From the NCBI GenBank assembly GCA_900313705.1, contig OMSJ01000007.1:1-55889 (forward strand): DNA of 55,889 nucleotides. Direction: 5' to 3'. Position numbers and translations under genes: made by a program. This document shows positions 21,881 to 55,244 of the stretch, piece after piece. Source of the stretch: an uncultured Prevotellaceae bacterium. Lineage in GTDB: Bacteria; Bacteroidota; Bacteroidia; Bacteroidales; Bacteroidaceae. A model generated the notes under the pieces. It ran no database searches. It was not told the DNA's origin and was given only the letters and a program-made list of their open reading frames with translations. Every line of letters begins with the position of its first letter. The first letter of the stretch is position 1.

Positions 21881-22029
21881 GCGCGTACCTGTCGCCATAA
21901 GTCCACGTACCTGTCGCCATAAGTCCCCGTACTTATTGCCGTAAGTCCCCGTACTTATCGCCATAAGTCCCCGTACTTATTGCCATAAGTCCACGTACTT
22001 ATCGCCGTAAGTCCACGTACTTATTGCCA
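21881..22029. repeat. 22-bp tandem array, six full units plus a partial
   Basis: Six exact 22-bp units begin at 21898, 21920, 21942, 21964, 21986 and 22008, after a partial unit at 21881-21897. The core is TAAGTCCMCGTACTT followed by a 7-nt tail (mostly ATTGCCA or ATCGCCG/A). The array fills most of the space between the 3' end of the U32 gene and the sigma-factor promoter. No spacers interrupt it. It shares unit length and consensus with the arrays at 33901-34010 and 55113-55244. Confidence 0.95.
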
Positions 22030-22039
22030 GGAAGACGCG

Positions 22040-23293
22040 TCAGTCTGTTATGCTTTTGATAATGAACAGCTTGTCGTTTCGGCGGACTTTAGTGGCGAGC
22101 GGGATGCTGATGTGCTGGCCTTGAAGTGCTGTCTGTACGGGTTTCAGGTCGTAGCGAATCTCGCTCACCGTGGCGCGGAGGGCACCGGTGGTCGGACCTG
22201 TCACCAGTATCTCGTCGCCAACACAGAGCTCGCAGGCTTCTATCTTGAACTCAGCCACTTGCAGCTTCGAGTAGTAGCGCACGGTGCGTCCGCAATAGAC
22301 CTTGCGCTCGGTGGCCTTCGAGCCGTGGCAGTCGTTCCACTCCATCATGGTCTTGCCCTGATAGTAGCCGTCCCAGAAGCCTCGGTTGAAGACGCGTGCG
22401 AGCCGCTCGTCCCATTCGTCCAGACGGGCGAGGAACACCTCTTTGCCTTCATCGGGGTTGGTGAGTGTGTCGATGGCCTCTCGATAACACCTCACGACGG
22501 TATCGACGTATTCCGGTCCTCTGGCCCGTCCTTCTATCTTGAAAACGCGAACCCCGGCATCTATCATTTTGTCGATGAAACGGATGGTTTTTAGGTCTCG
22601 CGGAGACATGATGTACTTGTTCTCGATGTCGAGTTCGGTGCCTGTCTCCACGTCCTGCACCGTGTATCGGCGTCGGCAGAGCTGCATACACTCGCCGCGA
22701 TTGGCTGAACGTCCCCAGTTGCTCTGACTCAGGTAGCATTTGCCGCTGATGGCCATGCAGAGTGCGCCGTGGCAGAACATCTCGATGCGGACAGGCTTCC
22801 CGCTTGGTCCGCAGATGTCATTTTTATCGATGGAATGGGCGATTTCTGCAACTTGCTCCATGTTCAGCTCACGTGCCAGCACCACGACGTCGGCGAACTG
22901 TGCGTAGAACTTCAGAGCTTCTGCGTTGCTGATGTTCAGCTGCGTGCTCAGGTGAACCTCCAGCCCTATCTGTCGGCAGTAGAGCATCACCGCCACGTCG
23001 CTCGCAATGACGGCCGATATGCCTGCGGCCTTTGCCGCATTCAGGATGGTGCGCATCAGCTCCAGGTCCTCGCCGTAGATGATGGTGTTGACTGTCAGGT
23101 AGCTCTTGATGCCGAAGCGCCGCGTCTCCTCGGCAATGCGCTGAAGGTCGTCGATGGTGAACGTGCTGGCGGAGTGCGCCCGCATGTTCAGGTTCTCTAT
23201 ACCGAAGTAGATGCTGTCCGCTCCCGCTCGTATGGCAGCCGCCAAACACTCTGGCGACCCTACAGGGGCCATTATCTCAAGGTCATGTTTCAT
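22040..23293 (-). CDS. U32-family peptidase-like protein, probable tRNA hydroxylation factor TrhP
   Basis: The 417-residue protein begins with the family's MAPVGSPECLAAAIRAGADS and contains the four-cysteine block in RIEMFCHGALCMAISGKCYL, followed by RGECMQLCRRRY. KYIMSPRDLKTIRFIDKMID and FKIEGRARGPEYVDTVVRCY are further U32 signatures. These proteins were classed as peptidases (PrtC-like). YegQ/TrhP homologues of this length are now linked to prephenate-dependent 5-hydroxyuridine formation at tRNA position 34. The C-terminal 90 residues form the small beta-barrel seen in TrhP-type members. No neighbour supports one role over the other. Confidence 0.88.
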   Translation of the reverse strand: MKHDLEIMAPVGSPECLAAAIRAGADSIYFGIENLNMRAHSASTFTIDDLQRIAEETRRFGIKSYLTVNTIIYGEDLELMRTILNAAKAAGISAVIASDVAVMLYCRQIGLEVHLSTQLNISNAEALKFYAQFADVVVLARELNMEQVAEIAHSIDKNDICGPSGKPVRIEMFCHGALCMAISGKCYLSQSNWGRSANRGECMQLCRRRYTVQDVETGTELDIENKYIMSPRDLKTIRFIDKMIDAGVRVFKIEGRARGPEYVDTVVRCYREAIDTLTNPDEGKEVFLARLDEWDERLARVFNRGFWDGYYQGKTMMEWNDCHGSKATERKVYCGRTVRYYSKLQVAEFKIEACELCVGDEILVTGPTTGALRATVSEIRYDLKPVQTALQGQHISIPLATKVRRNDKLFIIKSITD

Positions 23294-23312
23294 AATTCAT
23301 AATTATCGCTTG

Positions 23313-23320
23313 CAAAGGTA
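23313..23320 (-). promoter_or_regulatory. -7 promoter element of the U32 gene
   Basis: TACCTTTG on the minus strand, 20 nt upstream of the ATG at 23293. No -33 TTTG is evident. The remaining 23321-23568 contains no gene that could be supported. Confidence 0.6.
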
Positions 23321-23568
23321 CGAAATAATCTACACTTATCAGTATGTAAATGGAAATATCACACTGTTTTCTTGGTTTGTTAAGTAAAAACTTATATAAT
23401 TGCACAAATTTGTAAAATCTGGTTTAACACTATTGGCATGGCAATATCACGCAACACGCTCCGTCAAATAACACCGCCCACTCTTTCCTCGGAGGAGCAG
23501 AGAAGACGGTGAATGGTAATAATACCTTTTGTCCTGTGCTTCTTTTGGGAGTGCACTCAAATTCTGAG

Positions 23569-24357
23569 CTACGGGCACACAGCACGGACAGAGTGCCCGC
23601 CGATGCGGAGGAGAGTGTCGTAGCCAAAATACCAGTAGTCGGAACCGAAGTGCAGCCGTCGCACGCTCTTGCTAGACCTTAATTGCGAACTCCAGTAGTA
23701 GCCATTGCTGCCCGCGAGGTAGAATCCGTGGAGCCAGCGGTAGCCAGCAGCGGGAAGGAAGATTTGACCGTCGTTGCGACCCGTCACAAGGATGCCGTTA
23801 ACGCCATTCACCTGCGCCCACTGGCGGGAGCAGTTGTTCACCAGTTCCGTTAGTAGTTCATCCGATGGCATACGCCAAGGCGCACCCATGTTGACCGTGG
23901 CGGCATCGTATTCCGTACCCGCAATGTCAGAGCCGATGTTGACGAATACACTCCCGTTATCATACCAGCCATCCCCATCGGTATCTTTTCCTGTGTCTTT
24001 TCCTGTGCAATACCAATAAGTCACTTCTGTATAGACACTCTTTGTCAATGTCTCGCCCCAGGCATAACAGCCGCCATATTCCTCTGGCTTGCTTGCTCCT
24101 ACGTTGCAGCAGCACCACTTTGTTCCGCTCGGCAGACCAAGGTCGATGGCATGAGGATGATGGTCGTCGGGGCAAGTAAGATGTGATGGCATTGTTTGCT
24201 TTTCTTTTACAAAGACCATACTGTCTAAAGTTGATACTTCATACTCGATTGTCGTGCCGTCACTTTTGTAGATTAACACCTTTTGTGCCCATACAATATG
24301 CACACTTGCAATTATTAGGACAGCCAAAGAAAGGAAAAACTTTTTCATTTTGCTCAT
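23569..24357 (-). CDS. exported protein with Fib_succ_major/DUF1566-like variable C-terminal domain
   Basis: The 262-residue protein has a signal peptide (KKFFLSLAVLIIASVHIVWA, cleavage near residue 24). A short segment VLIYKSDGTTIEYEVSTLDS follows, and then the domain that opens HAIDLGLPSGTKWCCCNVGA and YGGCYAWGETLTKS. It ends NGYYWSSQLRSSKSVRRLHF and GGHSVRAVCP. This is the Fibrobacter-major-paralogous/DUF1566-like C-type-lectin-like fold, common as multiple paralogues in Bacteroidetes and known as a target of diversity-generating retroelements in some species. No reverse transcriptase is in this window. Function is unknown; surface binding is plausible. ATG 24348 is an alternative start. 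A candidate structured RNA lies in front. Confidence 0.75.
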   Translation of the reverse strand: MSKMKKFFLSLAVLIIASVHIVWAQKVLIYKSDGTTIEYEVSTLDSMVFVKEKQTMPSHLTCPDDHHPHAIDLGLPSGTKWCCCNVGASKPEEYGGCYAWGETLTKSVYTEVTYWYCTGKDTGKDTDGDGWYDNGSVFVNIGSDIAGTEYDAATVNMGAPWRMPSDELLTELVNNCSRQWAQVNGVNGILVTGRNDGQIFLPAAGYRWLHGFYLAGSNGYYWSSQLRSSKSVRRLHFGSDYWYFGYDTLLRIGGHSVRAVCP

Positions 24358-24377
24358 TTGTTAATTGTTTAATACTA

Positions 24378-24402
24378 AAATGTTTCCTCGTTCATTATGG
24401 GA
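24378..24402 (-). terminator. hairpin with T-run just upstream of the exported-protein gene
   Basis: On the minus strand TGTTTCC and GGAAACA pair around a 12-nt loop and are followed by TTTT. It sits 20 nt upstream of the ATG at 24357 and downstream of the candidate structured RNA. It could therefore terminate that RNA or serve as a conditional terminator. Confidence 0.5.
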
Positions 24403-24432
24403 AACAGGCGCCAGACTTATGAGTAAAAGAAA

Positions 24433-24574
24433 AGCGCAGGCCTCTCCATATCTCCGACAGGTCTGCGACAACCTTCTATCAACTATGGAAAGCCTGCGTT
24501 TGTAGCGCAAGCCTCAAAGTTGATAGATTTCGCTCGTGTAGTCTCTTTTCGAGGTCGCAGTTCGTCGGAGATAT
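24433..24574 (-). ncRNA. candidate structured RNA or leader, unknown family
   Basis: Three nested perfect helices are visible: 24448-24458 with 24564-24574 (11 bp), 24463-24469 with 24554-24560 (7 bp), and 24476-24484 with 24518-24526 (9 bp). Inside the last, 24492-24498 pairs with 24506-24512 with a G-U only if the minus strand is the RNA; on the plus strand this is a C-A mismatch. The 24492-24498 segment could instead pair perfectly with GCCTGCG at 24435-24441, which is followed on the minus strand by TTTTCTTTT. Such mutually exclusive pairing with a T-run is attenuator-like. The exported-protein gene starts 76 nt downstream of 24433. The gap 24358-24659 has no coding sequence. A small inverted-repeat (MITE-like) element is the main alternative. 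Confidence 0.5.
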
Positions 24575-24659
24575 TGAGCAAATGAAATGTTTTGTGTCCC
24601 GTTATGGGAAGCACAGGTTATGTAAAGTTTTTATGTCATTGTTTTTGAGCTTATAATGT

Positions 24660-25091
24660 TTAAGCATTATTTGTATGGTCAAATTGTTTCAACTTATCCA
24701 CAAATTCCATTAGCCTCAACACGATTAGCTTTGGAAAGCCGATGTTGCGCAGTGGGTTGAAATGCTTGTCGTCGCTTACAATATATGTTGCATTTGCAGC
24801 TATTGCACAGTCCACAAACTTGTTGTCATCATGGTCTGTCTTTATCAGCCCGAAGTGGTAGTAGGGGGTTATGAACTCCACGAATTCGCTGTTTGTTAAG
24901 TACTGCACCACATTTTCTGCTATTTCCGGTGTTGTTTTTCGTCCTATCATCTCCTGGTATTCCATAAGGATTTCATTAGATAAGCAGAGCCTATATTGTC
25001 CATCATGGAGTCCACGCCAAACGGTGTAGCTCCTACTGGTACGCGACAACGAGGCTATAAGACAGTTTGTGTCGAGGACGATGCGCTTCAT
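24660..25091 (-). CDS. PIN-domain putative toxin (COG1569 type)
   Basis: The 143-residue protein opens MKRIVLDTNCLIASLSRTSR (first catalytic Asp at position 7). It continues with LCLSNEILMEYQEMI (Glu), TDHDDNKFVDCAIAANA (Asp) and YIVSDDKHFNPL (fourth acidic site), so all four acidic residues of a PIN ribonuclease are present. Length matches the PIN family associated with toxin-antitoxin loci. It follows an 85-residue gene by 4 nt on the same strand, the usual antitoxin-toxin order. RNase activity is inferred from the family. Confidence 0.87.
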   Translation of the reverse strand: MKRIVLDTNCLIASLSRTSRSYTVWRGLHDGQYRLCLSNEILMEYQEMIGRKTTPEIAENVVQYLTNSEFVEFITPYYHFGLIKTDHDDNKFVDCAIAANATYIVSDDKHFNPLRNIGFPKLIVLRLMEFVDKLKQFDHTNNA

Positions 25092-25095
25092 TTGC

Positions 25096-25353
25096 TTAAT
25101 ATAAATATGGTGTACGCAGATGCTCGTTCATCACTGCGTCGCTCTGTTCGCGTCCCCAAAGACCTTGGTCTTCGAGGTCAGCCATACCCTTTTCCACCTC
25201 ATTGAAATAGTAATCAGCAAGCACTTGTTTCAACCCTTTCAGCTGAGCCTCACTATTCATGTATGAAAACATCCTCAGAAGATGCAACTGCACGGGGTTG
25301 AGTGGAGTGGCAAGCATCTCCCCGTGGGGACTTGGTGTGGATAGATTGTTCAT
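25096..25353 (-). CDS. putative antitoxin partner of the PIN-domain protein
   Basis: An 85-residue acidic protein with LNPVQLHLLRMFSYMNSEAQ, then LKGLKQVLADYYFNEVEKGM and a C-terminal LWGREQSDAVMNEHLRTPYL. No standard AbrB, Phd or RHH DNA-binding motif was recognised. The segment resembles short all-helical antitoxin-like proteins encoded next to COG1569 PIN proteins in Bacteroidetes. Its position directly upstream of the PIN gene with a 4-nt gap and a shared promoter is the main reason for the call. Confidence 0.65.
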   Translation of the reverse strand: MNNLSTPSPHGEMLATPLNPVQLHLLRMFSYMNSEAQLKGLKQVLADYYFNEVEKGMADLEDQGLWGREQSDAVMNEHLRTPYLY

Positions 25354-25409
25354 ACTCTTTTTATCTTATTCAAAGTAACTAATAGTTGTTCCTCTTACGA
25401 AGCACGGTG

Positions 25410-25440
25410 CAAAGTTAGTGATTTCTTCAATATGCGCAAA
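25410..25440 (-). promoter_or_regulatory. promoter of the PIN toxin-antitoxin pair (TTTG-N19-TAACTTTG)
   Basis: On the minus strand TTTG (25440-25437) and TAACTTTG (25417-25410) are separated by 19 nt. The antitoxin ATG at 25353 lies 57 nt downstream of the -7 element. Confidence 0.75.
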
Positions 25441-25480
25441 GAAAAACGGTGAAAAGTTGTGCAGATTGGGAAAATCTTCG

Positions 25481-25488
25481 TACCTTTG
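25481..25488 (+). promoter_or_regulatory. -7 promoter element of metK
   Basis: TACCTTTG fits TAnnTTTG, with a partial -33 (AGTTG) about 21 nt upstream. Transcription would start near 25495 and give a leader of about 140 nt that holds the SAM-II-like element. Confidence 0.7.
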
Positions 25489-25503
25489 CAGCCGCAAAAA
25501 CAA

Positions 25504-25556
25504 CATGTGGACAGATTTGGGCTGCTTGCAACCACAGTAAAAAATGCTAAAACGAG
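25504..25556 (+). promoter_or_regulatory. probable SAM-II riboswitch upstream of metK
   Basis: UGUGG (25506-25510) pairs with CCACA (25532-25536) as P1. The 21-nt loop contains the conserved GAUUU and UUGCAA segments. The tail carries AAAUGCUAAAA, the conserved SAM-II 3' part, and loop GCA can pair with tail UGC as the pseudoknot. Order and spacing follow the SAM-II (metA-type) aptamer as remembered from the metX example. The element begins about 10 nt after the predicted transcription start and ends 82 nt before the metK ATG, as expected for SAM feedback on SAM synthetase. Confidence 0.78.
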
Positions 25557-25637
25557 GACTGCCGCTGTGCGCCTCACGCATTTGTGCCCGACTTCTTTCC
25601 CCATACATTATTAATTATATTAAAGATTAATTCTACT

Positions 25638-26897
25638 ATGGGTTATTTGTTTACGTCGGAGTCAGTCTCCGAAGGCCATCCCGACAAGGTGGCCGATCAA
25701 ATCAGCGATGCCGTGCTCGACAAACTGCTTGCCTTCGATCCCGATTCGAAGGTGGCGTGCGAAACACTCGTCACGACCGGACAGGTCGTGCTGGCAGGCG
25801 AAATCAAGACAAAGGCATACGTTGACCTGCAACGTATCGCTCGCGAAGTCATCAACCGCATCGGCTATACCAAGAGCGAGTATATGTTCGAGGGCAACAG
25901 TTGCGGTGTGCTCTCTGCCATTCACGAGCAGAGCGCTGACATCAATCGTGGTGTTGACCGTACAGACCGCACCACACAGGGTGCAGGAGACCAGGGCATG
26001 ATGTTCGGCTATGCAACCAACGAGACCGAGAACTACATGCCGCTCTCCCTCGACCTCGCGCATCGTCTCCTCCTGACGCTTGCCGACATCCGTCGCGAAG
26101 GCAAGGTGATGACCTACCTGCGCCCGGATGCCAAGAGCCAAGTCACGATAGAATACAGCGACGAAGGTGTACCTCAGCGCATTGACACCATCGTGGTATC
26201 GACTCAGCATGACGAGTTCGACACGGACGAAGCCATGCAGCAGCGCATCGCTCGCGACGTCAAGGAGATACTCGTTCCCCGTATGCTTGACGGCATTCGC
26301 TCCGAGCGCATCCGTAGCCTCTTTGACGACCGCATCACCTACTACGTCAACCCGACAGGCAAGTTCGTTATCGGTGGACCTCATGGCGACACAGGTCTTA
26401 CGGGACGCAAGATAATCGTTGATACCTACGGCGGCAAGGGTGCGCATGGCGGTGGTGCCTTCAGCGGCAAAGACCCCTCGAAGGTCGATCGCTCGGCGGC
26501 ATACGCAGCCCGCCATATCGCCAAGAACATGGTGGCAGCAGGCGTGGCGGACGAGATGCTGGTGCAGCTCAGCTATGCCATCGGCGTGGCAGAACCCGTC
26601 AGCATCTTCGTAGATACCTATGGAAAGAGCCATGTCGCACTCTCCGACGGAGAGATTGCCGGGAAGATAAAAGAACTCTTCACCCTCACCCCATACGCCA
26701 TAGAGCAGCGACTCAAGCTGCGTAACCCCATCTACGAGGAAACAGCAGCCTACGGACACATGGGCCGCGAGCCACGCACGGTGACGAAACGCTACGAGTC
26801 GCTCTATCAGGAAACGAAGGAAGTGACCGTCGAACTCTTCACCTGGGAGAAGCTCGACTATGTGGAGAAGATAAAGGAAGCCTTCGGGCTAAAGTAA
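25638..26897 (+). CDS. metK: S-adenosylmethionine synthase
   Basis: The 419-residue protein makes SAM from methionine and ATP. It begins [20 protein letters not shown], with the HPDK ATP/Mg motif at residues 14-17. [33 protein letters not shown] and the glycine-rich [16 protein letters not shown] phosphate loop are signatures of the MetK family. Length is normal, slightly longer than E. coli MetK. The ATG at 25638 is chosen because it starts at the conserved N-terminus and leaves room for the SAM-II leader; the in-frame start at 25584 would lie within the leader. Confidence 0.96.
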
Positions 26898-26909
26898 TCA
26901 GAGAAATCA

Positions 26910-26953
26910 GAGTAATCGGAGTAGTCTGAATACTTCGAGGACTCCGATTACTC
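26910..26953. terminator. 13-bp perfect hairpin between metK and the LOG gene
   Basis: GAGTAATCGGAGT (26910-26922) and ACTCCGATTACTC (26941-26953) form a perfect stem around 18 nt. There is no T-run, so it may be a weak or partial terminator or a processing site. The downstream ATG is at 26968. Confidence 0.55.
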
Positions 26954-26967
26954 AGAACAAACAGACA

Positions 26968-27555
26968 ATGAACAAAGGAAAAAAAATAGCAGTCTATTGT
27001 GCAAGCAGCACACAGATAGATGATTGCTACTTTAAGGATGCGCGTCGCCTCGGACAGTTGATGGGCGAGCAAGGCGTGACGCTGATAAACGGAGCAGGCA
27101 ACATGGGACTCATGGCAGAGAGTGCCAACGGGTGCCTCGAGGCCGGAGGAAAGGCCATAGGCGTCATTCCTACCTTTATGATAAAGGAAGGATGGTGTCA
27201 CGACGGTATGACACAAATCATCGAAACCACCGACATGCATGAACGTCAGGCAAAGATGGCTGAAATGAACGACGCCGGCATCTTCCTGCCGGGCGGCATA
27301 GGAACCTTCGCAGAGATGACCGAACTCATCATGTGGAAGCAGCTTGGTCTTTACCTCAAGCCCATCGTACTGCTCAATACGTGCGGCTACTTCGACTCCA
27401 TGCTCAATACGCTCCACCAGGCCATCAAGGAGAACTTCATGCGTCCAGTACATGCCGACACCTGGTGCGTCGCTCCTACTCCCGAGGAGGCACTGCGGAT
27501 GGCGCTTGAGACACCTCTCTGGGATACGAGCATCCGACGCTTTGCCAAGATATAG
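26968..27555 (+). CDS. LOG-family (lysine decarboxylase-like) nucleotide phosphoribohydrolase
   Basis: The 195-residue Rossmann-fold protein begins KKIAVYCASSTQIDDCY and contains INGAGNMGLMAESANGCLEA and the family signature LPGGIGTFAEMTELIMWKQL (PGGxGTxxE, about residues 109-128). LOG proteins cleave cytokinin-type or other nucleoside 5'-monophosphates to base and ribose-5-phosphate. They are often mislabelled as lysine decarboxylases. Length is typical. It follows metK in the same direction across a 70-nt gap with a hairpin, so cotranscription is possible but not shown. Confidence 0.9.
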   Translation: MNKGKKIAVYCASSTQIDDCYFKDARRLGQLMGEQGVTLINGAGNMGLMAESANGCLEAGGKAIGVIPTFMIKEGWCHDGMTQIIETTDMHERQAKMAEMNDAGIFLPGGIGTFAEMTELIMWKQLGLYLKPIVLLNTCGYFDSMLNTLHQAIKENFMRPVHADTWCVAPTPEEALRMALETPLWDTSIRRFAKI

Positions 27556-27600
27556 GCACTTTGGCTTCCACCGGATGCGAGATAAGCTTTGTAGATAAGC

Positions 27601-28479
27601 ATGAAGACGGCAGACACCATATCCTTGGCATCAACCCAGGCAATCGATACGCTTGGCATTGATACGCTCAGTGCGGTGCTGCCGGACACGATTGCCGAAG
27701 AGCTGAACCCTTTCGATGAGTACGGCTTCTTCCATGATGACAGTCTCGTTCATGCAGAAGTGCCGTACCGACCTTTCGGATTCGAAGCAGCAGCGACACC
27801 CTTCCGCCTGCGCAATGAAGCATGGAGCGGAGTGCTGCTGCTCGTCTGTCTGCTGCTTGCTGCAGGTATTGTGCTGCGCCTCAAGAAGAAGTTCCGTAAA
27901 CTGCTGCGTGATGTCTTCCTCCCCATTCCAGGCAAGACAGACGAACTCATCCTGGACGACCCGCTACGTTATTCCACCCGTCTCATGGCTGTATGCCTCC
28001 TTTCGTTCGCGGCAGCCATCGTCACCTTCGTCCTTACCCAAAGCCAGGTCAGCTACTATCCGTTTCGCGAGACACCCTACCTCTTGTTTGCAGCCTTCTT
28101 TGTCCTCTGGATTGTCTATTTCCTGGCAAAGAGAATGCTTGGCAGCTTTATTAACTGGATATTCTTTAGGCGTGGAAAAATATTTACATGGAAGCGAGTC
28201 TATACGTTCCTCCTTGCTGCAGAAGCCATGTTGTTCCTCGTCTTGGCGCTTGTGGTTATGTATTTGCCTGTGACCTCAAGTGAGGTACAACTTTTGGTGC
28301 TTATTCCTATCATTTTTGTCAAGATTGTGCTTCTTTTTAAGACCTATCAGATATTTTTCCCAAAAATGTATGGCACTTTGCATTTAATTGTGTACTTTTG
28401 CACACTCGAATTGATACCGTTGCTCGTTTTGCTGCGCGTGCTGACGTATGCCGAATGGCTCACTACGATAAAAATATAG
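27601..28479 (+). CDS. DUF4271 domain integral membrane protein
   Basis: The 292-residue protein has a polar N-terminus (about 75 residues) and then six to seven hydrophobic segments, beginning SGVLLLVCLLLAAGIVLRLK and including LMAVCLLSFAAAIVTFVL and AEAMLFLVLALVVMYL. This is the DUF4271 family, found almost only in Bacteroidetes directly upstream of hemD, as here. No catalytic residues are recognised and the role is unknown. It is the first gene of a five-gene run with short or overlapping junctions (hemD, rnpA, yidD, tatD). Confidence 0.86.
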   Translation: MKTADTISLASTQAIDTLGIDTLSAVLPDTIAEELNPFDEYGFFHDDSLVHAEVPYRPFGFEAAATPFRLRNEAWSGVLLLVCLLLAAGIVLRLKKKFRKLLRDVFLPIPGKTDELILDDPLRYSTRLMAVCLLSFAAAIVTFVLTQSQVSYYPFRETPYLLFAAFFVLWIVYFLAKRMLGSFINWIFFRRGKIFTWKRVYTFLLAAEAMLFLVLALVVMYLPVTSSEVQLLVLIPIIFVKIVLLFKTYQIFFPKMYGTLHLIVYFCTLELIPLLVLLRVLTYAEWLTTIKI

Positions 28480-28498
28480 GAAAAATACACGACAGACG

Positions 28499-33864: not shown

Positions 33865-33900
33865 AGCCCCTGACTTTCAGCGGACAGGGCATATCCGTCA

Positions 33901-34010
33901 TAAGTACGTGTACTTACCTCAATAAGTACGTGTACTTACCTCAATAAGTACGTGTACTTATAGCCATAAGTACGAGGAGTTATCGCCATAAGTCCACGGG
34001 TATTTTTCCA
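33901..34010. repeat. 22-bp tandem array, five units, between recJ and recQ
   Basis: Five exact 22-bp units begin at 33901, 33923, 33945, 33967 and 33989. The first three carry TAAGTACGTGTACTT followed by a 7-nt tail; the last two diverge (TAAGTACGAGGAGTT and TAAGTCCACGGGTAT). The core contains the near-palindrome AAGTACGTGTACTT. The array lies between the recJ stop (33864) and the recQ start (34049). Confidence 0.95.
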
Positions 34011-37185: not shown

Positions 37186-37231
37186 GGTAATCCCCAAATT
37201 GTAAATGGCAAATGGTCAAATCGTAAATTGT

Positions 37232-37325
37232 AAATCCTAAAATCCTAAAATCCTAAAATCCTTCAATCCTTCAATCCTTAAATCCTTCAATCCTTAAATC
37301 CTTCAATCCTTAAATCCTTCAATCC
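37232..37325. repeat. 8-bp tandem arrays (AAATCCTA / AATCCTTC type)
   Basis: Several AAATCCTA units are followed by about nine AATCCTTC/AATCCTTA units with exact 8-bp period. The array fills nearly the whole spacer between the S24 repressor gene (stop at 37326) and the orphan gene (start at 37185), both on the minus strand. Confidence 0.9.
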
Positions 37326-43434: not shown

Positions 43435-44601
43435 ATGGCCAATATAGCAGTCAGTCAGATAACCTCCAGCAAAGAGATGCGGGCATTTGTCCGTTTCAAC
43501 TATGAGCTGTACAAGGATTGTCCGCAGGCTGTTCCCGACTTGCTCGAGGACACACTCGAGACGTTCGACCCCCGTCGTAACCCAGCATTCCGCTTCTGCG
43601 AGGCAGCTTTCTTTCTTGCCCGTAAGGACGGACGCATCGTGGGCCGTGTGGCAGCCATCATCAACACACGTGCCAACACCCGTTGGGAGAGGCAAGACGT
43701 GCGCTTCGGCTGGATAGATTTCATAGACGACATCGAGGTGAGCCGTGCTCTGCTTGAGGCTGTGGAGCAATGGGGCCGTCAGCGAGGCATGACCCGTATA
43801 GTGGGACCGCTCGGCTTTACCGACCTGGATCCGGAGGGGATGCTGACAGAAGGCTATGACCAACTCTCTACCCTTTGCTCCATTTACAATTATCCTTACT
43901 ACCCTCAGCACATAGCCAAGCTGGGCTTCGAGAAGGAAGTGGGGTGGGTGGAGCGCAAGGTGTTCATCCCCAGAGGAGAGCATGAAGCAAACAAGGCCAA
44001 GTATTTCCGCATAGCGCAGATGGTGCAGCAACGCTATGGCTTCCGCCTCCGCCATTTCCGCAGCAAGAGCGAGATAAAGAAGGGTGGCTATGTGAAGAAG
44101 ATGCTTGACGTAGTCAATCGTGCCTATGTTGACCTCTATGGTTTCAGCCAGCTCGATGACCAGCAGAAGGAGTGGTATGCATCCAGGTTCCTGATGCTGC
44201 TGGACCGCCGCTTCCTCTCCGTGGTGGAGAATGCCGAGGGCGAAATCATCGGTATCGGCGTTTGTATGCCTAGCCTGAGCCGAGCAGTTCAGAAGGCCAA
44301 GGCAAAGCTCTTCCCGTTCGGATGGTGGCATATCGTCAGCGAGCTTTACTTCAAGCGCAAGCATCAGATACTTGATATGCTGCTGGTGGGTGTCCTGCCT
44401 GAGTATCAGGAGAAGGGAGCCAATGCCCTCTTCTTTGCTGATATGATACCGGGCGGCATCAGCGGAGGCTACGAATGGGCCGAGACAAACCCCCAGCTCG
44501 AAGACAACCTCGCCGGCCAGATGCAATGGAAGAACCTCGACTGCTGCATCCACAAGCGCAGGGCAGTCTTTGCCAAAAAACTAAATCCACAGAAAGACTA
44601 G
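43435..44601 (+). CDS. GNAT-superfamily-like N-acyltransferase, unknown substrate
   Basis: The 388-residue protein begins MANIAVSQITSSKEMRAFVR. It has an N-terminal half with AAFFLARKDGRIVGRVAAII and MTRIVGPLGFTDLDPEGMLT, and a C-terminal half with LVGVLPEYQEKGANALFFAD. The latter resembles the GNAT acetyl-CoA pyrophosphate loop in part. No catalytic assignment is possible. Similar proteins are frequent in Bacteroidetes as conserved hypotheticals. Its stop codon (44599-44601) lies within the first unit of the 9-bp array that leads to parE. Confidence 0.6.
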   Translation: MANIAVSQITSSKEMRAFVRFNYELYKDCPQAVPDLLEDTLETFDPRRNPAFRFCEAAFFLARKDGRIVGRVAAIINTRANTRWERQDVRFGWIDFIDDIEVSRALLEAVEQWGRQRGMTRIVGPLGFTDLDPEGMLTEGYDQLSTLCSIYNYPYYPQHIAKLGFEKEVGWVERKVFIPRGEHEANKAKYFRIAQMVQQRYGFRLRHFRSKSEIKKGGYVKKMLDVVNRAYVDLYGFSQLDDQQKEWYASRFLMLLDRRFLSVVENAEGEIIGIGVCMPSLSRAVQKAKAKLFPFGWWHIVSELYFKRKHQILDMLLVGVLPEYQEKGANALFFADMIPGGISGGYEWAETNPQLEDNLAGQMQWKNLDCCIHKRRAVFAKKLNPQKD

Positions 44602-44675
44602 AACAACTAGAAAGACTAGAAAGACTAGTAAGACTAGAACAACTAGTAAACCTAGTAAGACTAGTAAGACTAGAA
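44595..44675. repeat. 9-bp tandem array (AGACTAGAA-like) x9 filling the spacer to parE
   Basis: Nine 9-bp units based on AGACTAGAA (variants CAACTAGAA, AGACTAGTA, CAACTAGTA, AACCTAGTA) run from 44595 to 44675. The first unit contains the stop codon of the upstream gene, and the array ends 10 nt before the parE ATG. Each unit carries a TAG. Confidence 0.92.
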
Positions 44676-44685
44676 AAAAGCCACT

Positions 44686-47602: not shown

Positions 47603-47632
47603 TTCGGGAAAAATCCCAATGCTCTCAGATGA

Positions 47633-47786
47633 GAGTCCCCCCGTGGAAGGACTGGAGTCCCCCCGTGGGAGGACTGGAGTTTTTCCGTGGAAGTACTGGA
47701 GTACCACCGTGGAGGTACTGGAGTTTTTCCGTGGAAGTACTGGAGTACCACCGTGGAGGTACTGGAGTTTTACCGTGGAGGTACTG
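47633..47786. repeat. 22-bp tandem array, seven units, different consensus
   Basis: Seven exact 22-bp units begin at 47633 and every 22 bases after. Each has GAGT, six or seven variable bases, CCGTGGAAGTACTG or a close variant. Units 3 and 5 are identical, as are 4 and 6, which gives a 44-bp higher-order repeat. The reading frame rotates through the units, so the overlapping open frames here are not genes. The array lies in the 400-nt gap between coaD and the giant gene. Confidence 0.95.
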
Positions 47787-47895
47787 GAATCTCTTTGCGG
47801 GGTTGTTTACAGCATGAAGTATAGCATTTCCTGATACCTCTTTTTTGTTTTTTTTACAAAATACGCTCTTTGTGTAAAGAAAATGCTAAAAAAAT

Positions 47896-48002: not shown

Positions 48003-51000
48003 ATGAGTAAAAAACTACTGAATCTGTGTCTGGCCGCTCTGTTGAGCGTTGTCACCACAGCTGCTTGGGCGCTTTCCGAAGTAGGTGGCGTCTATCAGAT
48101 TGGTACGGCAGCGGACTTGGAAGAGTTCGCTCAGCTCGTGAATGATGGCGAAGTCTATGCCAATGCCGTCCTGACGGCCGACATAGAGAAACCCGCCTCG
48201 GACGTTTCCATGATTGGTACACAAACCAATGAGTACAAGGGAACTTTCGATGGCAAGGGACACACCATCAAGATTAACATGTTCTCGGAAGGTACTGCTG
48301 ACCTGGCACTCTTCCATTACACAGGCTATGGTGCCATCATCAAAGACCTGAAGGTGGAGGGAACCATCACTACCGACCAGAAGTTCGCCGCTGCTATTGT
48401 AGCGCGGAACAAAGCTATCATCACAGGCTGCTATGTCGATGTAACCATCAACAGCTCCGTTGCAGGTGACGCCACCCACGGCGGTATCGTTGCCCTTGGC
48501 TATGGCGGCACGACAATCGAAAACTGTCTGGCAAAGATTGCCATCGTTGGCGAGACGACCCAGAACTGCGGCGGCGTCGTAGGTTGGGCAGAGAAGCGCG
48601 TCAACATTGCCAACTGTCTTGTTGTCAGCGACGGCAGTACACTCGACCTTTCTACAGGTGCCAGCTGCAACATTTGCCGTAACGCCGGCTACCTGAAGAC
48701 CATTGACCTGGACAACTACAACGCTGATCCATACGCCAACCGTCCTCAAGGTGCTTGCTACAACAACTATGTCACCAATCAGTGGGGCGACAACGTTGCC
48801 ACAACCGTTGTGGCTTACGATGACCTCGCCGATGGTCGTATTTGCTATCAGCTCAACAACGACCAGAGCAAGATCAACTGGGTACAGAGAATCGACACAG
48901 ACCCATTCCCCGTGCCCGCTGCATTCGGCGAAGGTCAGGTATATGCTTCCGCAGCCACCGACTGCGACGGCAAGAGCGAAAGCGAACTGACCTTTAGCAA
49001 CACTCCAAGCAATGCAACAGCCACAGCACATAGCTTCGACAAGTACGGCGTCTGCACAGTCTGCGGATGCTTCAACTTCCACATGTTCGACTTCGACGAC
49101 CCCACTAAGTTCGACCAGACTGATAGGGCCGTCCTCCTCCGCAGCGTCGAGGACTTCGACAAGGTGGAAGGTTGGAACCGTATCGCAAACGGCTTCAGAC
49201 TCAACATGAAGCTGATGAACGACATCGAGTACATTACCGAGCCCGGCAAGTACATCTTCAACCCCAGCGATTGGATTGACGGTAACTTCAACGGACAGGG
49301 ACACGCCATCACCATCGGCATGACCGAAATGGGCGGCTACGCTTCCCTCTTCCCCGAAATGGCCGGTAACATCGAGAACCTCATCGTTCACGGCTCTATC
49401 GAAGCAAACGGAGCACGTTGGGGCTCTGTCTGCGCTGAAGCACGCATGGAACTGGTTCGTAACGTCTATTCCGACGTCAACATCACATCCAGCGTTGCAG
49501 GCGACAACACCGCCGGCGGCTTCTTCGGATGGATGGGCGAAAAGGAAAAGCACGTCGAGAACTGTATCTATGCAGGTAACATCACCCTGCCACAAGGCGC
49601 ACCCTACGTTCGCGTCGGCGGCTTCGCAGGATGGGCTGCAACGAAGACCTACTTCGACAACTGCGCCGTCCTCGGCAACATCACAGGTGCAGGCGACCAG
49701 AGTGCACAATCCTCTACAGAGAACTCCGGTAACATCTCACGTAACTGGGGCAACATCGTCTGCAATAATGTGTACGTCGTCAATCCCATTACAGGTCGCG
49801 ACATTGCCGACCAGGACAAGTACACACACTACGAAAACGAAGCAGGCATTGCTAACGGTGAGCTTGCATTCTTCCTGAACAGCAAGCAGAACGGCCTGGA
49901 GCGCTTCTATCAATTGATTGGCACTGACAAAGAGCCTATGCCTATTGCAAAAGCAGGTGCGCTCGTCTATGCCAATGCCCCGGAATACCGTTGCGACGGT
50001 GAACCCATGGGTAGTACGACATACAGCAACACATATACTGGCGATCCCGTTATTCCTGACCATCAGTATGAGGATGGCTGGTGCACAGTCTGCGGACAGT
50101 TCGACGAAAACTTCATCACACCGGTCGATGGATGGTTCGAAATAAGCAATGGCATCGAACTTGTATGGTGGCTCAACTATGCTAATATACATAAGGACGC
50201 GTGCGCACGCCTGACGGATGACATCGACATGGATGGCTGTCTGGAGCGCTTCGTTCCCATACAGAAGTATGTCGGCACATTCGAAGGCCAAGGCCACGTC
50301 ATCAGCAACTTCGTTCTCGAGACCAGCAAGGACTACCAAGGTCTGTTTGGAACAATCAGCAACGGAGCTGAACTCAAAAACTTTATCCTCGACGAAACCT
50401 GCTCCATCAGGGGCAACGCATTCTGCGGAGGTATAACTGGCGGCACCGACGGCAGCGGCGACATCTACATCACCAATGTCGGCTTCGAAGGTAACGTCAC
50501 CACAGCCAACCAGAACGCAGCAGGTCTGGTCGGCGTGGACCAGGGCGGTGCCATGAACATGCACATCGTCAACTGCTACGTCATCGGTACTATCAATGGC
50601 GGACGTGAGTCAGGTGCCATCTGCGGCTACTCGAACGCTGCCAGTGAAGTCATCAATTGCTGGGCTGCCATCTCGATTCCTCAGGCTGGCATCTACGATT
50701 GCGACTCCTTCACCCGTGGCTCTGCTAAGGTCGTCAATTGCTACGAAGCAGACATCGAAGGTGTTGACCACAACAAGCAGCAGCACTACAGACAAATGGG
50801 CGCAGACCGTGCAACTATCACTCTTCCTCTCGAGGAGATTGCCAACGGCGCTCTTGCCTATAATCTGAACGGAAAGCAGTTCCTTAATCCCACATGGTAT
50901 CAGACGCTCGAAGACGATGAGCATCCTTATCCTTTCGACAATCACGGCGTCGTTATCTTTGGTGCAGACAAGTACTTCTCCATTCCTGACAGCGACCTCG

Positions 51001-54000
51001 AAGAGGTAGCTTCTGAGATTCAGTCAAGCGAGGAAGATGCCATGGAAGACATCATTGCTACCCAGTCCCTGCTCGACGATTGGGAGAATGCAGTCGAGGC
51101 TCTGTCCGAGGTTGAGACAATCGAGGCTCTCGCCGACGCTATCGAAACTGTCAGTGCAGCTAAGGAAGCTGTCCGTCAGAGTGCAGATGTCTATAAGGCA
51201 TACATCGCCAAGTGCGAAGAGATCAAGGCATTCCTTGCCTCTAACGATACCTTCGAAGGCGACCTGCGTACAGCTCTCGAAGCTTACCTCAGCGGAGACG
51301 ATGAGCCCAGCGAGGATAATCCTCTTGGTGCTTATGCCTACATCGTAGATAACCACACTGCTACCACCGACGAAATCAAGGCAGAGACAGCTCGCGTCGA
51401 AGAATGGCTGCAGAAGGCTATTGCTGATGGCTACAAGCCCGGCACTGACATCAGCAAGCTGATTCCCAACTACGACTTCAGCAAGAAGAACGAAGGCTGG
51501 ACCGGTGGCTTCAGCAATGACTGGGATCAGATTGAGGACGGTGAAGGCAATGTCATCACCGGCGTTGAGGCTTGGAATGTCCGTGGTGACATGTTCCAGA
51601 CTCTCGAAGGCATGAAGCCTGGTTACTACCTCATCGGTACTCACGGTACATTCCGTCCTAGCAACAACCGCTACAGCACGAACTATGCTGCAGGTATCTA
51701 TGCTAACGGCATCTTCAACTACTTCCCCGCTGCTATCGAGGATAAAGTTGCTGTAGATGAAGCAGAGGACGGCGTGAACTGCAACCTGACCATCAAGAGT
51801 GCATTCGACCTGCCCATCTACGAGAACGATGCTACCACCGATGAATATGGCGACGCTCTCCTGGGCTATGTCGTTCAGGGTCCGACCGGTATGGCTATTG
51901 CTGCTAAGGCTGGCCGTTACCAGACATACACCATTGCACGCGTAGGCGAGGACGGCAAGCTCACTATCGGTATCAAGAACCCCGGCACGATGTACGGCAA
52001 CGACTGGACAGGCTGGAGTAACCTCCAAGTGGTTTACTGTGGCGACGATGCTGAGAAGAGTGGCGAAGCTCTCGACAAGGTACTTGAGAACATGGGTGCC
52101 CGTGCTCAGAGCATCCTCGACTATGAGTACGACACAGAGAATACGCCTGCAGGTCCTAACTTCCCCGCTGCGCTGAAGGATGAGCTTGCTAAGGTTGTAG
52201 ACCAGGTAGAGGCTGCTGAGACCGTTGAGGCCAAGGCTGCTCTCGCTGCTAAGTTCTCCGACCTCTTCCAGAAGATTTACGAAGGCAAGCAGGCTTACAT
52301 TGCTCTGTTCAACACTGCTGAGCTCATCGGCTCTATCCAAATGGGTAACCTGGCTTTGGTTGAAAAGGACGAAGAGACAGGCGACCGGATTGAGACAGGT
52401 GAGTATGTCCTGAGTGAGACTGAGACAGAGGTTCTCTATTATGTATCTGAGGATTTGTATGATGCTTACTATTCCGGCTCGTACAGCACGAAGGAGGCTC
52501 TGAATCCTTCTGCACTGTCGAATCCGGCGGTGAAGCAGATTATTCCTGTTCAAGATGAGGATGGTTACTATCTGATTGGCACAGTGAAGCAGTTCGTGGT
52601 ATATCGCACGATTGCCAGTGAAATGGATAGGTACGCCAAGGGTAAGCTTACGGCTGACATCGATTTGGACGGCATTGCCATGCTGCCTATCGGCCATAAC
52701 AGAGGCGAGAACGCTCAGCACATCTTCTCCGGTGAATTCGATGGTCAGGGCCATGCCCTCCTCAATGTCTTCATCGACGATGCAAATATCCCATCTGGCG
52801 AATATGCTGAGCCTGCAACGTTGTTCTATGAGTTGCAGAATGCTACCGTCAAGAACTTCAAGCTGACTGGTGAAATGTACACCAGCCATCAGTTCTCTGG
52901 TCCTATCACTCGCTGGATGTCCGGCAAGTCAACCATCGACAACGTTGAGATTGCTGTCGCATTCCACCTCGCTTCCAACCTTTCGGGCGACACCTCTTCG
53001 GGTGGCGTAATTGGTCGCAACGGTAGTGCTAACAGCCTTATCAACAACTGTCTCGTCAATAATACCATTATTGGTGAGGGTGACAACCCACACTGGTACT
53101 TTGGCGGCGTTGCCGGTTGGGCAGATGCTTCTCTGCAAATAAAGAACACGCTGATTACCTCTGAGTACATCAATGTCGGTGCAGATGGTGACAACTCCCG
53201 CACGACCAGCCGTGGTGCGAAAGCAACTCTGACGAATGTCTTTGTATCTCAGTTCTTCCGTGAGGCAGAGGGTACACTCGTTACTCCCGAGCAGTTGAAG
53301 AGCGGTGAGGTTACCTGGAAGTTGAACGGCAGCACGGGTGACAATCCCACTTGGTTCCAGACGCTTGGTCAGGACTTGACTCCTCGTCTGTTCGACGGTG
53401 CTACTGTTTACTACTATGGTGGCAAGTACATCAACGAGAAGCCCAATCCTCAGCTCAATGCGTTTGCTTACAACCTGAATGCTAAGGTGGATGGTGACAA
53501 CGTAGTCGTCAGCTTCGACCTCAATGCCGAGGCAGAGTCTGCACAGGTTAACTTCCTCGACGGCGAGAATCAGGTTTACAGCACGGCTGTCAAGGACCTT
53601 GCTCCTGGCACAAACGAAGTATCAGTCCGTTCCATCAGGCTCGGTGTTTCCGACGTGACGAAGCTGAACTACGAGGTGGCTGTTACGGGCAAGGGTTCAC
53701 TTGACGTCCTCCGCGTGGGCGAACCGTTCAAGGTATGGGGCCCCTACGGTATGGCTGTGAACAACAATCCTGAGAGCAAGAACTTCGGTCAGGTGCTCAT
53801 CGCAGAGTCCTATCCCGAGGAGATTACTGAGGCTTACATCTCTCACGAGAAGCCCGGTGCTATCTATGCATTCGATCCCAACTTCCAGCCCATCAACTCT
53901 GCCGACGGTACTCCTGGCTTCTATGGTGGTCTGCCTATCAGGGGTGAGATACCTATGTCAGTCATTGGCAACAACTACAAGTTCGACCTCAAGGACCTCC

Positions 54001-54965
54001 GCTTCACGGAAGATGGTCGTCTCTTCGTAGCACGTGCTTCCGGCCTGAACAACAGCTCTGTATGGGAAATCAATCCTGATAACCTCGACCAGCCCTGGAA
54101 GCCCGTCTTCACGGGTGGTGAGCTCGACGAGGAGACCGGTATCACCTATGTTGGCGATGAAGAGCAGAACCGTATGGCTCTGAGCTTGGCCTTCGAAGGC
54201 AAGGGTGAAGACCTGAAGATGTACGTCCTCGGTGCTCAGCGCAGCAACGGCGAGTACAACTTCACCGACTACAACTGCTCTGTTTATAACCTCGGTACAG
54301 CCAAGGAATGGGCTGGTGCTCCCTCTGCTAACTTCGAGGCTCTCGACGGTGTCTTCACCAAGTCTCCCGTCGATGTAGGTATCCACGAGGACGGTCAGGG
54401 TGGTCTCTGGTTCATCCAGCGCCGTAGCGATGCTTCTGCCGAGATTCCTGCCATCAAGCACTTCAACGCAGAAGGCCAGGAAGACTACAGCGACATCTCC
54501 AGCACCACGGTTGGCGACAGGATTGCTGTGACCACAAACGGCAACTACCTCGCTATCCCGAAGAGCAACGGCACCGTCGTTCTCTACGAGACCAACTATG
54601 TTCCTATGGAGAATGGCAAGATCTGGCTTGAGCCTAAGAATACTATCAATGTTGGTGAGAGCCGTATCACTGCCTTGGCATTCGACTACGCCGACAACCT
54701 CTATGTTGCTTCAGCCAGCACCGAGACCTTCAGCCGCTACACCATCCCCGGCATGAGCAAGGTGGTCGTTACTCCTGGTAACGGCATTGCTTCCGGTGCT
54801 AAGGGTGACCTGAACGGCGACGGTAAGGTTGACATTGCCGATGCAGTTACAGTCCTGAACATCATGGCAGCAGGTGAGTACAATGCAAGCGCAGACATCA
54901 ATGGCGACCAGAAGGTTGACATTGCCGACTTCGTAAGCATCCTGAACATCATGGCTGCTCAGTAA
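48003..54965 (+). CDS. giant exported GLUG-repeat protein with C-terminal dockerin-like domain
   Basis: The 2320-residue protein has a signal peptide (SKKLLNLCLAALLSVVTTAA, cleaved near 23). Three repeats follow (about 24-355, 356-700, 701-995) of a GLUG-type beta-helix module, with GTFDGKGHTIKINMF-like turns. The first two are closed by a CTVCG cysteine motif. A helical FIVAR-like part (996-1150), a jelly-roll-like part opening IPNYDFSKKNEGWTGGF (1150-1345), a fourth GLUG module (about 1490-1806) and a propeller-like region (about 1910-2255) follow. The end is two EF-hand-like repeats GDLNGDGKVDIADAVTVLNI and ADINGDQKVDIADFVSILNI, the layout of type I dockerin. It is probably cell-surface or secreted. 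No cohesin or T9SS CTD was seen. Function unknown. Confidence 0.82.
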   Translation: MSKKLLNLCLAALLSVVTTAAWALSEVGGVYQIGTAADLEEFAQLVNDGEVYANAVLTADIEKPASDVSMIGTQTNEYKGTFDGKGHTIKINMFSEGTADLALFHYTGYGAIIKDLKVEGTITTDQKFAAAIVARNKAIITGCYVDVTINSSVAGDATHGGIVALGYGGTTIENCLAKIAIVGETTQNCGGVVGWAEKRVNIANCLVVSDGSTLDLSTGASCNICRNAGYLKTIDLDNYNADPYANRPQGACYNNYVTNQWGDNVATTVVAYDDLADGRICYQLNNDQSKINWVQRIDTDPFPVPAAFGEGQVYASAATDCDGKSESELTFSNTPSNATATAHSFDKYGVCTVCGCFNFHMFDFDDPTKFDQTDRAVLLRSVEDFDKVEGWNRIANGFRLNMKLMNDIEYITEPGKYIFNPSDWIDGNFNGQGHAITIGMTEMGGYASLFPEMAGNIENLIVHGSIEANGARWGSVCAEARMELVRNVYSDVNITSSVAGDNTAGGFFGWMGEKEKHVENCIYAGNITLPQGAPYVRVGGFAGWAATKTYFDNCAVLGNITGAGDQSAQSSTENSGNISRNWGNIVCNNVYVVNPITGRDIADQDKYTHYENEAGIANGELAFFLNSKQNGLERFYQLIGTDKEPMPIAKAGALVYANAPEYRCDGEPMGSTTYSNTYTGDPVIPDHQYEDGWCTVCGQFDENFITPVDGWFEISNGIELVWWLNYANIHKDACARLTDDIDMDGCLERFVPIQKYVGTFEGQGHVISNFVLETSKDYQGLFGTISNGAELKNFILDETCSIRGNAFCGGITGGTDGSGDIYITNVGFEGNVTTANQNAAGLVGVDQGGAMNMHIVNCYVIGTINGGRESGAICGYSNAASEVINCWAAISIPQAGIYDCDSFTRGSAKVVNCYEADIEGVDHNKQQHYRQMGADRATITLPLEEIANGALAYNLNGKQFLNPTWYQTLEDDEHPYPFDNHGVVIFGADKYFSIPDSDLEEVASEIQSSEEDAMEDIIATQSLLDDWENAVEALSEVETIEALADAIETVSAAKEAVRQSADVYKAYIAKCEEIKAFLASNDTFEGDLRTALEAYLSGDDEPSEDNPLGAYAYIVDNHTATTDEIKAETARVEEWLQKAIADGYKPGTDISKLIPNYDFSKKNEGWTGGFSNDWDQIEDGEGNVITGVEAWNVRGDMFQTLEGMKPGYYLIGTHGTFRPSNNRYSTNYAAGIYANGIFNYFPAAIEDKVAVDEAEDGVNCNLTIKSAFDLPIYENDATTDEYGDALLGYVVQGPTGMAIAAKAGRYQTYTIARVGEDGKLTIGIKNPGTMYGNDWTGWSNLQVVYCGDDAEKSGEALDKVLENMGARAQSILDYEYDTENTPAGPNFPAALKDELAKVVDQVEAAETVEAKAALAAKFSDLFQKIYEGKQAYIALFNTAELIGSIQMGNLALVEKDEETGDRIETGEYVLSETETEVLYYVSEDLYDAYYSGSYSTKEALNPSALSNPAVKQIIPVQDEDGYYLIGTVKQFVVYRTIASEMDRYAKGKLTADIDLDGIAMLPIGHNRGENAQHIFSGEFDGQGHALLNVFIDDANIPSGEYAEPATLFYELQNATVKNFKLTGEMYTSHQFSGPITRWMSGKSTIDNVEIAVAFHLASNLSGDTSSGGVIGRNGSANSLINNCLVNNTIIGEGDNPHWYFGGVAGWADASLQIKNTLITSEYINVGADGDNSRTTSRGAKATLTNVFVSQFFREAEGTLVTPEQLKSGEVTWKLNGSTGDNPTWFQTLGQDLTPRLFDGATVYYYGGKYINEKPNPQLNAFAYNLNAKVDGDNVVVSFDLNAEAESAQVNFLDGENQVYSTAVKDLAPGTNEVSVRSIRLGVSDVTKLNYEVAVTGKGSLDVLRVGEPFKVWGPYGMAVNNNPESKNFGQVLIAESYPEEITEAYISHEKPGAIYAFDPNFQPINSADGTPGFYGGLPIRGEIPMSVIGNNYKFDLKDLRFTEDGRLFVARASGLNNSSVWEINPDNLDQPWKPVFTGGELDEETGITYVGDEEQNRMALSLAFEGKGEDLKMYVLGAQRSNGEYNFTDYNCSVYNLGTAKEWAGAPSANFEALDGVFTKSPVDVGIHEDGQGGLWFIQRRSDASAEIPAIKHFNAEGQEDYSDISSTTVGDRIAVTTNGNYLAIPKSNGTVVLYETNYVPMENGKIWLEPKNTINVGESRITALAFDYADNLYVASASTETFSRYTIPGMSKVVVTPGNGIASGAKGDLNGDGKVDIADAVTVLNIMAAGEYNASADINGDQKVDIADFVSILNIMAAQ

Positions 54966-55009
54966 AGCGCTCGTTCCCCGACTCCTCTCTGGGGAGTAGG
55001 GAATAACAT

Positions 55010-55049
55010 ACAGCCCCCTGCGGATTCGTTCCGCAGGGGGCTGTTTCTG
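55010..55049 (+). terminator. strong rho-independent terminator after the giant gene
   Basis: CAGCCCCCTGCGGA and TCCGCAGGGGGCTG form a 14-bp G/C-rich stem with a short ATTCGT loop, followed by TTTCTGT. It starts 45 nt after the stop codon. Confidence 0.88.
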
Positions 55050-55112
55050 TATGCATCCTCGAAAAGCCCTTGCATTAGGCGGATTGCGGCTCCGTACCAG
55101 TGTAGGCATTCC

Positions 55113-55244
55113 TAAGTACGCGTACTTCGCTTCATAAGTACGTGTACTTCGCTTCATAAGTACGTGTACTTCTCTTTATAAGTACGTGTACTTAGCAGCC
55201 TAACTACGTGTACTTCGCTTCATAAGTACGTGTGCCTCGCTGCC
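55113..55244. repeat. 22-bp tandem array, six units
   Basis: Six exact 22-bp units begin at 55113, 55135, 55157, 55179, 55201 and 55223. The core TAAGTACGTGTACTT is perfect in units 2 to 4; the others differ by one or two bases. Tails are CGCTTCA or similar. A degenerate unit follows at 55245. The rest of the 580-nt gap holds the terminator and the promoter of the next gene. Confidence 0.95.

Follow-up and report, generated by a model that had tools for sequence, protein, structure and literature searches.

We report that four tandem arrays in a 55,889-nucleotide stretch of DNA from an uncultured Prevotellaceae bacterium (the window, i.e. the whole stretch that was analysed) are, with a probability of roughly 0.7, short interspersed non-autonomous mobile repeats made of 22-bp palindromic modules. 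Specifically, the module is dispersed in the window's own genome (G000, a MAG that is 80.5% complete), its frame and 22-bp register recur in related species with other letters, the paired positions covary, one subfamily (T1) has defined ends and a target duplication signal, and relatives are free of the array at one orthologous locus.

All four arrays were confirmed in the window by TRF, with a period of 22 or 44 (Table 1); the TRF call for array 2 spans 33900-33993. Arrays 1, 2 and 4 have the common unit ATAAGTAC-GT/AC-GTACTTAT plus a 4-bp linker, and the unit at 47633 differs from the other three, both as claimed in a first-pass annotation of this DNA; in the common frame the array 3 unit reads GTACTTCC-AC-GGTGGTAC-TCCA on the minus strand. 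Our data also support the proposed single family with an exact two-turn (22-bp) register and, again as stated there, the arrays are intergenic, have palindromic units and are without spacers. Pfam matches give as neighbours U32 peptidase and sigma factor at array 1, RecJ and RecQ at array 2 (which sits in a 184-bp recJ-recQ gap), and near arrays 3 and 4 a short match to CTP_transf_like, which is coaD-like, and a dockerin-domain protein of 2320 aa. A terminator-like hairpin, recognised by eye, follows the dockerin gene and array 4 begins 64 bp beyond it. Smaller arrays of the array 3 family, with dissimilar flanks, are present at L014:11208 and L142:7644. The only Rfam match in the window was a SAM-II riboswitch (RF01726, positions 25501-25560, plus strand, 55.9 bits).

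Table 1. Positions of the four arrays in the window, of the genes next to array 1, and of the Y1 genes discussed in the text
Feature	Position	Description	Basis
Array 1	21884-22029	~6.6 units, ATAAGTCCMCGTACTTAT + YGCC	TRF, sequence, unit register
Array 1, right neighbour	22040-23293, minus	U32 peptidase gene; array 11 bp past its stop	
Array 1, left neighbour	21147-21713, minus (to 21920 if earlier start)	sigma-factor gene	
Array 2	33900-34005	4 clear ATAAGTACGTGTACTTAT-type units and a decayed fifth (by eye)	TRF
Array 3	47633-47788	7 units, second sequence family CCGTGGAAGTACTGGAGTACCA	TRF
Array 4	55109-55241	6 units, downstream of dockerin gene	TRF
Y1 genes	L125:1483-1938 (G000 C119); L126; L124	RAYT-like	

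The idea that the core might recur outside the four gaps was borne out by a search of the whole genome, throughout which the AAGTAC unit is scattered. The pattern TAAGTACGTGTACTT with up to two mismatches has 400 forward and 421 reverse matches in G000 (near-palindromic sites may score on both strands), compared with 2 and 3 for its reversed control. For the 18-bp template ATAAGTACNNGTACTTAT there are 279 sites in 742,380 sampled bases (the window and 40 stretches, a sample biased to contigs with TAAGTACGTGTACTT matches) against 16 after a mononucleotide shuffle, and 198 of the 199 neighbour spacings below 100 bp are exactly 22. These sites form 80 clusters, 21 of them single sites; the 59 multi-unit clusters have two (2 clusters), three (1), four (35), five (15) or six units (6), sizes that are lower bounds as decayed end units may escape the template. 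Several stem families coexist within one genome. Clustering of the flanks joined 51 arrays, partly via simple sequence, and served as a lead only, and no AAGTAC array was found in viral contigs with the exact pattern.

Related genomes provided a similar picture: many species of the same genus have 22-bp arrays with different stems, and the AAGTAC unit itself is absent from most of them. Period-22 arrays with other units are present in all six close relatives sampled; their stems include AACTTAAC-AC-GTTAAGTT (G008, G024), AACGCCGC-AC-GCGGCGAT (G043), AATGCGAC-GC-GTCGCATT and AACGCCCT-AT-AGGGGAAT (both G005) and ATAAGCTC-AC-GAGTCATC (G013). Of the period-22 segments, 48 come from 415 kb of G000 and 28 from 450 kb of G008, G012, G013 and G024; other species of the genus contribute 4 in 325 kb, and 257 kb from 16 species of other families contribute none. 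In the same four groups period 21 gives 9, 7, 2 and 0 segments, periods 20 and 25 at most one per group, and periods 19, 23 and 26 none.

A stem-independent pattern, CACG-N18-CACG-N18-CACG, gave 6,951 matches in 139 genomes of the genus including our own (matches overlap inside arrays and are not array counts). The reversed pattern gave 2,437, and since this control itself has period 22 and probably rings in GCAC arrays, the spacings 21 and 23 served as further controls; over the 139 genomes these yielded 430 matches (at most 18 per genome) and 79 matches (at most 8 per genome), respectively. Matches occur in 115 of the 139 genomes, 45 have at least 20, and in 27 of those the count is at least three times that of the reversed control. 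Across the order 34 of 295 genomes match, 25 of the 34 with one or two matches, which is no more than the reversed control commonly gives; clearly above that control are our own genome, G197 (23 matches, same-family genus g18) and, in family f82, G413 (24) and G220 (6), and no others. G413, of another family, carries a 369-bp array of about 16 AAACCACGTTAGGTTTTGGGTG units with period 22 (L205:3301-3669). Some same-genus genomes seemingly have CACG units with another period, e.g. CACGGCGTGCAACTTTCGTTT (G052 and G017, 21 bp; G097, 23 bp). There is also a second class of 22-bp module, a full or nearly full 22-bp palindrome without the AC core (TTGCTTCATCGCGATGAAGCAA, TTGCACCGTCGCGACGATGCAA, TTGCTCCTTCATGTAGGAGCAA), in G013, G116 and G000 (L135:4875-4940, L021:421-503).

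What is kept while the stems differ by species is the frame: an 8-bp half, AC, an 8-bp half and a 4-bp linker. The module in the proposed mechanism would be an 8-bp half-site, a 2-bp centre (mostly AC/GT inside CACG/CGTG), a complementary half-site and the linker. An unphased test covered 140 arrays from G000 and the six close relatives: in 67 of them the unit consensus is complementary at 8 or more of 11 pairs, compared with 2.2% of shuffled units. G012 is the only genome near the null, with scarcely any palindromy in its units (a mean of 5.8 pairs out of 11; null, 5.4). Among 15 family consensuses 80.8% of the cells are paired in the 8-2-8 structure, and cells changed on both sides number 35, compared with 12.8 after shuffling and 4-13 in slid versions. 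These consensuses were phased manually by their palindromes (out of 16, one row in the wrong phase was left out and another was shifted into phase) and the covariation figure therefore leans to structure; the slid controls and the unphased 140-array test answer this bias. Moreover, in the six relatives pooled, dissimilar palindromes occur at distance 22 in 41 pairs compared with about 19 elsewhere, distance 33 set aside (it is raised too, as it corresponds to a second dyad centre within these arrays). This excess, which a fixed register predicts, appears only when 6 of 8 pairs suffice, the looser of the two thresholds; the stricter one leaves two cases, too few to judge. G000 alone does not have the excess (19 versus about 26).

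These features bear on the ordered protein platform that the first-pass annotation had suggested. In the form weighed here, each 22-bp dyad would bind one dimer, with the dimers stacked on one face of the DNA, and the arrays would be read by a host factor particular to the species, for nucleoid, partition or insulation functions, whose specificity would change with the stems. Palindromic units, the exact register, the excess of dissimilar palindromes in relatives and the very few clusters below four units are in keeping with it. So is the occurrence in G000 of whole arrays with uncompensated mid-stem changes, e.g. at L009 and L146, or in the combination of AAGTAC with GTAGTT, which count against strict pairing and suit reading of DNA. 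On the other side stand the several stem families in one genome, the lack of the excess in G000 itself, the likeness of T1 to a plain MITE, and the lack of a candidate protein.

A further argument against the platform comes from orthologous loci. For recQ 28 loci were obtained and the upstream sequence was compared in our genome and its six nearest relatives. In G012 and G024 the array is absent from recJ-recQ, where a 51-bp non-repetitive gap takes the place of the 184 bp; the first-pass annotation had itself taken non-repetitive sequence of another length in relatives as grounds against its proposal, and that is what this locus holds. G008 has a different upstream sequence with a short array of its own stem, and G013, G043 and G005 have different upstream sequences with no array in the 350 bp compared. 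With these array-free relatives and the MITE-like T1, the platform at these loci is unsupported and we consider it unlikely, while a protein-bound role for the arrays is possible.

The flanks of the window's own arrays count against the reading as mobile repeats. Flank searches with the four arrays in the sampled genome returned no sister copy; their sole match was the left flank of array 4, of which 150 bp match the end of a paralogous gene (L010:6587-6729) at 85%. At the position of array 4 the L010 paralogue has other sequence without an array, and the next array, of T1 type, follows after another 470 bp or so; the right flank of array 4 had no match in the sampled part of the genome. The two paralogous gene ends (window 54960-55108 and L010:6587-6729) have a terminator-like hairpin in common. 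That the window's copies are mobile is therefore an inference.

T1 is the most clearly defined subfamily; its plan, based on the flanks of oriented arrays, is ATGATAATCCGCAAAA..ACCCTATGGAA, four or five modules, CTGACCACTTCCCAGAGAGGGGAGCAAGGGGTGC and TTTTGCGGATTATCAT. Its terminal inverted repeats are the 16-bp ATGATAATCCGCAAAA and its complement (at most five mismatches at each end), and they occur together in 17 of the 57 AAGTAC clusters that have at least three units. Lengths range from 157 to 194 bp in this set and from 154 to 194 bp over all elements that were kept, mostly 161-166 (four modules) or 182-185 (five), a step of one module. A target duplication is indicated by a 10-bp displacement in all 15 best-scoring settings (z 5.8-8.2), with an identity of 0.52 compared with 0.37 for permuted flanks (k=10), in a test on 33 candidates of which 4 were later dropped as false or duplicate. 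Most duplications are decayed, and an identity of only about half counts against the mobile reading; clear single cases are L024 (ATTTTGTTAA/ATTTTGTTAT) and L021, where ATAAATGGTT stands at either side of the element and belongs to a AAATGGTT-type simple sequence that is common in this genome. The end motif GATAATCCGCAAAA matches 56 times in G000 and between 0 and 4 times per genome in 30 relatives. One T1 copy, L050, is present in the rumen MAG RUG12173, which is another species; it has at least 38 matching places in G000 (81-96%), and almost all of these matches are confined to the element. (L050:1104-1363 is another dispersed repeat of about 205-245 bp, found in RUG12173 and G000 (L191, L137, L018, L146), and it matches L191 in inverted orientation too.) No T1 match was found in plasmid and phage records. 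T1 is short and has unrelated flanks, and is non-coding as judged by length and contexts; with inverted ends, a duplication signal, short length and many copies it is, by its features, a MITE. The three AAGTAC arrays of the window are without T1 ends, with 13-14 mismatches over the 32 end positions in a comparison with T1 ends only, and this too counts against the mobile reading. In G043 the elements have four modules in all seven aligned (of twelve array rows), with position-specific linkers; they are mostly bounded by AAACG and CGTTT, and six of the seven fold into one long hairpin.

Taken as mobile repeats, blocks of modules, nearly always at least four in the best-sampled genome, would be copied to new intergenic places, T1 by way of its inverted ends and an approximately 10-bp target duplication, the pattern expected for a MITE whose transposase is supplied in trans. 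The window's copies, which lack such ends, may have moved as T1 did, and the enzyme presumably acts on the repeats in trans. Recombination or slippage would then add or remove single modules.

Slippage by itself, i.e. ordinary tandem repeats (VNTR) with no further structure, agrees with copy numbers that vary by single units and with the richness of G000 in repeats whose periods are multiples of 7, 8 or 9 bp. It would predict mostly two or three units, seen in three of the 59 multi-unit clusters; T1 copying contributes to the remainder. Many T1 and AAGTAC arrays derive from one another by copying, and a shared module number is hence not independent evidence, which also limits the case for mobile repeats. 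Neither does it fit the shared outer ends with their duplication signal, the single period with different units across species, or the retained palindromy (a mean of 0.67 of pairs in 22-bp units compared with 0.43-0.58 in repeats of period 16, 18, 21 and 27, values that come without a null). We regard this reading as largely refuted and scarcely credible. The repeats with multiples of 7, 8 and 9 bp (e.g. window 8073-8123, 37231-37325 and 44591-44678; CCCATAAGC, TAAATCCT, AAAAGGTG) are several-fold more frequent per 100 kb in G000 than in the sampled other families.

Gene context was analysed with our own codon-usage gene caller for 131 classifiable arrays (nine more lie at stretch edges). Only 3 of the 131 are inside called genes, though 87% of the G000 sample is coding; purifying selection against insertions in genes and promoters would explain this intergenic position. 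Divergent gaps hold 20 of the 128 gap-placed arrays, and the enrichment in convergent gaps fell short of significance (Fisher p 0.06). Among the 58 same-direction gaps where stop and start are each less than 300 bp away, 45 have the array closer to the upstream stop; the medians for all 78 same-direction cases are 57.5 bp to the upstream stop and 144 bp to the downstream start. Orientation in such gaps is concordant with transcription in 23 of 32 arrays by the centre dinucleotide and in 23 of 29 by linker composition, and T1 with both ends is sense to transcription in 14 of 15 (p 0.001), a set in which some loci were fetched because of their T1 ends. This bias may reflect an insertion preference or selection against one orientation, and it counts against a neutral MITE, which does not predict it.

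The sense orientation of T1 and the position close to upstream stops are what one would expect if the arrays were RNA elements, that is, transcribed 3'-UTR hairpins with a role in protecting mRNA ends or in terminating transcription. One T1 copy folds strongly as RNA (-79.1 kcal/mol, z -11), and the G043 elements mostly have a terminal GC hairpin followed by TTT/TTTT, on both strands. However, T1 ends are closer to the stop in just 6 of 12 cases, AAGTAC modules are without a U-run, divergent gaps are occupied as well, the stems have uncompensated changes, and array 4 of the window is preceded by a separate terminator-like hairpin. We therefore give the RNA reading a low probability.

Which enzyme might move the repeats was addressed with two candidates. 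DDE_Tnp_1 (PF01609), the one DDE family searched, gave no match in G000 (80.5% complete), and no oppositely oriented T1 end pairs 0.5-5 kb apart were present among the 56 matches with at most one mismatch. The other candidate, a Y1 (RAYT) transposase that reads single-stranded hairpins, would make the arrays REP-like; a variable stem with a conserved short tag and loop, species specificity and intergenic position suit it, and G000 has one full-length and one partial Y1 match. Against this, the complete Y1 genes in G000, G013 and G043 have other palindromes immediately beside them, and G005, G008, G012 and G024 (MAGs, 72-89% complete) all have arrays and gave no Y1 match; Y1 was consequently rejected as mobiliser. 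Furthermore, IS200/IS605 elements are unlike elements with inverted ends and target duplications, such as T1 appears to be. A movement by Y1 is very unlikely in our opinion. The palindromes beside the Y1 genes (GCCCTGAAAGGGC and CCCAGGGC..GCCCTGGG) represent a separate REP system in the same genomes; L126 of G013 also contains a 22-bp array, further from the Y1 gene.

Returning to the mobile-repeat reading, in each lineage the stems would have been replaced in many arrays with pairing and the 22-bp register retained, which points to a fold or dyad being kept and not the letters. Recognition of a hairpin or dyad may be the reason why the frame persists; protein recognition of a dyad and recognition of a single-strand hairpin both fit a geometry that outlasts its sequence. 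A bolder version, which we regard as rather improbable, is that a fixed geometry (mostly at least four dyads, two helical turns, CACG core) is held within the genus while the letters are swapped wholesale by species in a drive-like chase between the arrays, selfish or structural, and a fast-evolving DNA- or hairpin-reading protein, in its logic like the turnover of eukaryotic centromeres or hot spots. With letters that vary by species and a constant period, palindromy and core in one genus (139 genomes), the repeats offer a natural experiment on whether a repeat is selected for its fold, its contact with protein or its mobility. The specificity of a partner protein, if there is one, should shift with the stems. 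In addition, the repeats may alter the ends of neighbouring transcripts and may hamper MAG assembly.

Searches of the open-licence literature brought up no earlier description of such repeats in titles or the opening lines of abstracts. CRISPR arrays are likewise regular, partly palindromic direct repeats; here, 4-bp linkers replace unique spacers and tens of arrays lie in the sampled part of one genome, in agreement with the first-pass annotation, which had rejected CRISPR. REP, BIME and REPIN sequences with their RAYTs resemble the arrays as short extragenic palindromes with species-specific stems and many copies, some in tandem, and constant 22-bp spacing is not among the features given in the excerpted descriptions (PMC3733652, PMC3116915), where the REP tags are GTAG or CGTC (PMC3733652); here, moreover, a different repeat accompanies the Y1 gene. 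T1 shares with MITEs, of which RUP, NEMIS and Nezha are examples in the excerpted text (PMC3733652), its 16-bp inverted ends, duplication signal, strong fold, tens of copies and intergenic position, but its interior is a row of tandem palindromes in a 22-bp register, and the AAGTAC copies of the window are without the ends. Finally, BOX of Streptococcus pneumoniae is, in the part of its description available to us, a dispersed composite with fixed outer parts, variable tandem inner modules, predicted hairpins and a proposed movement in trans by a transposase (PMC3049150). Set against that description, T1 is alike in plan, not in descent, with fixed outer parts and four or five inner modules, and the repeats reported here are distinct in having 22-bp palindromic modules, a strict register, a sequence that varies by species and a host in the Bacteroidales.
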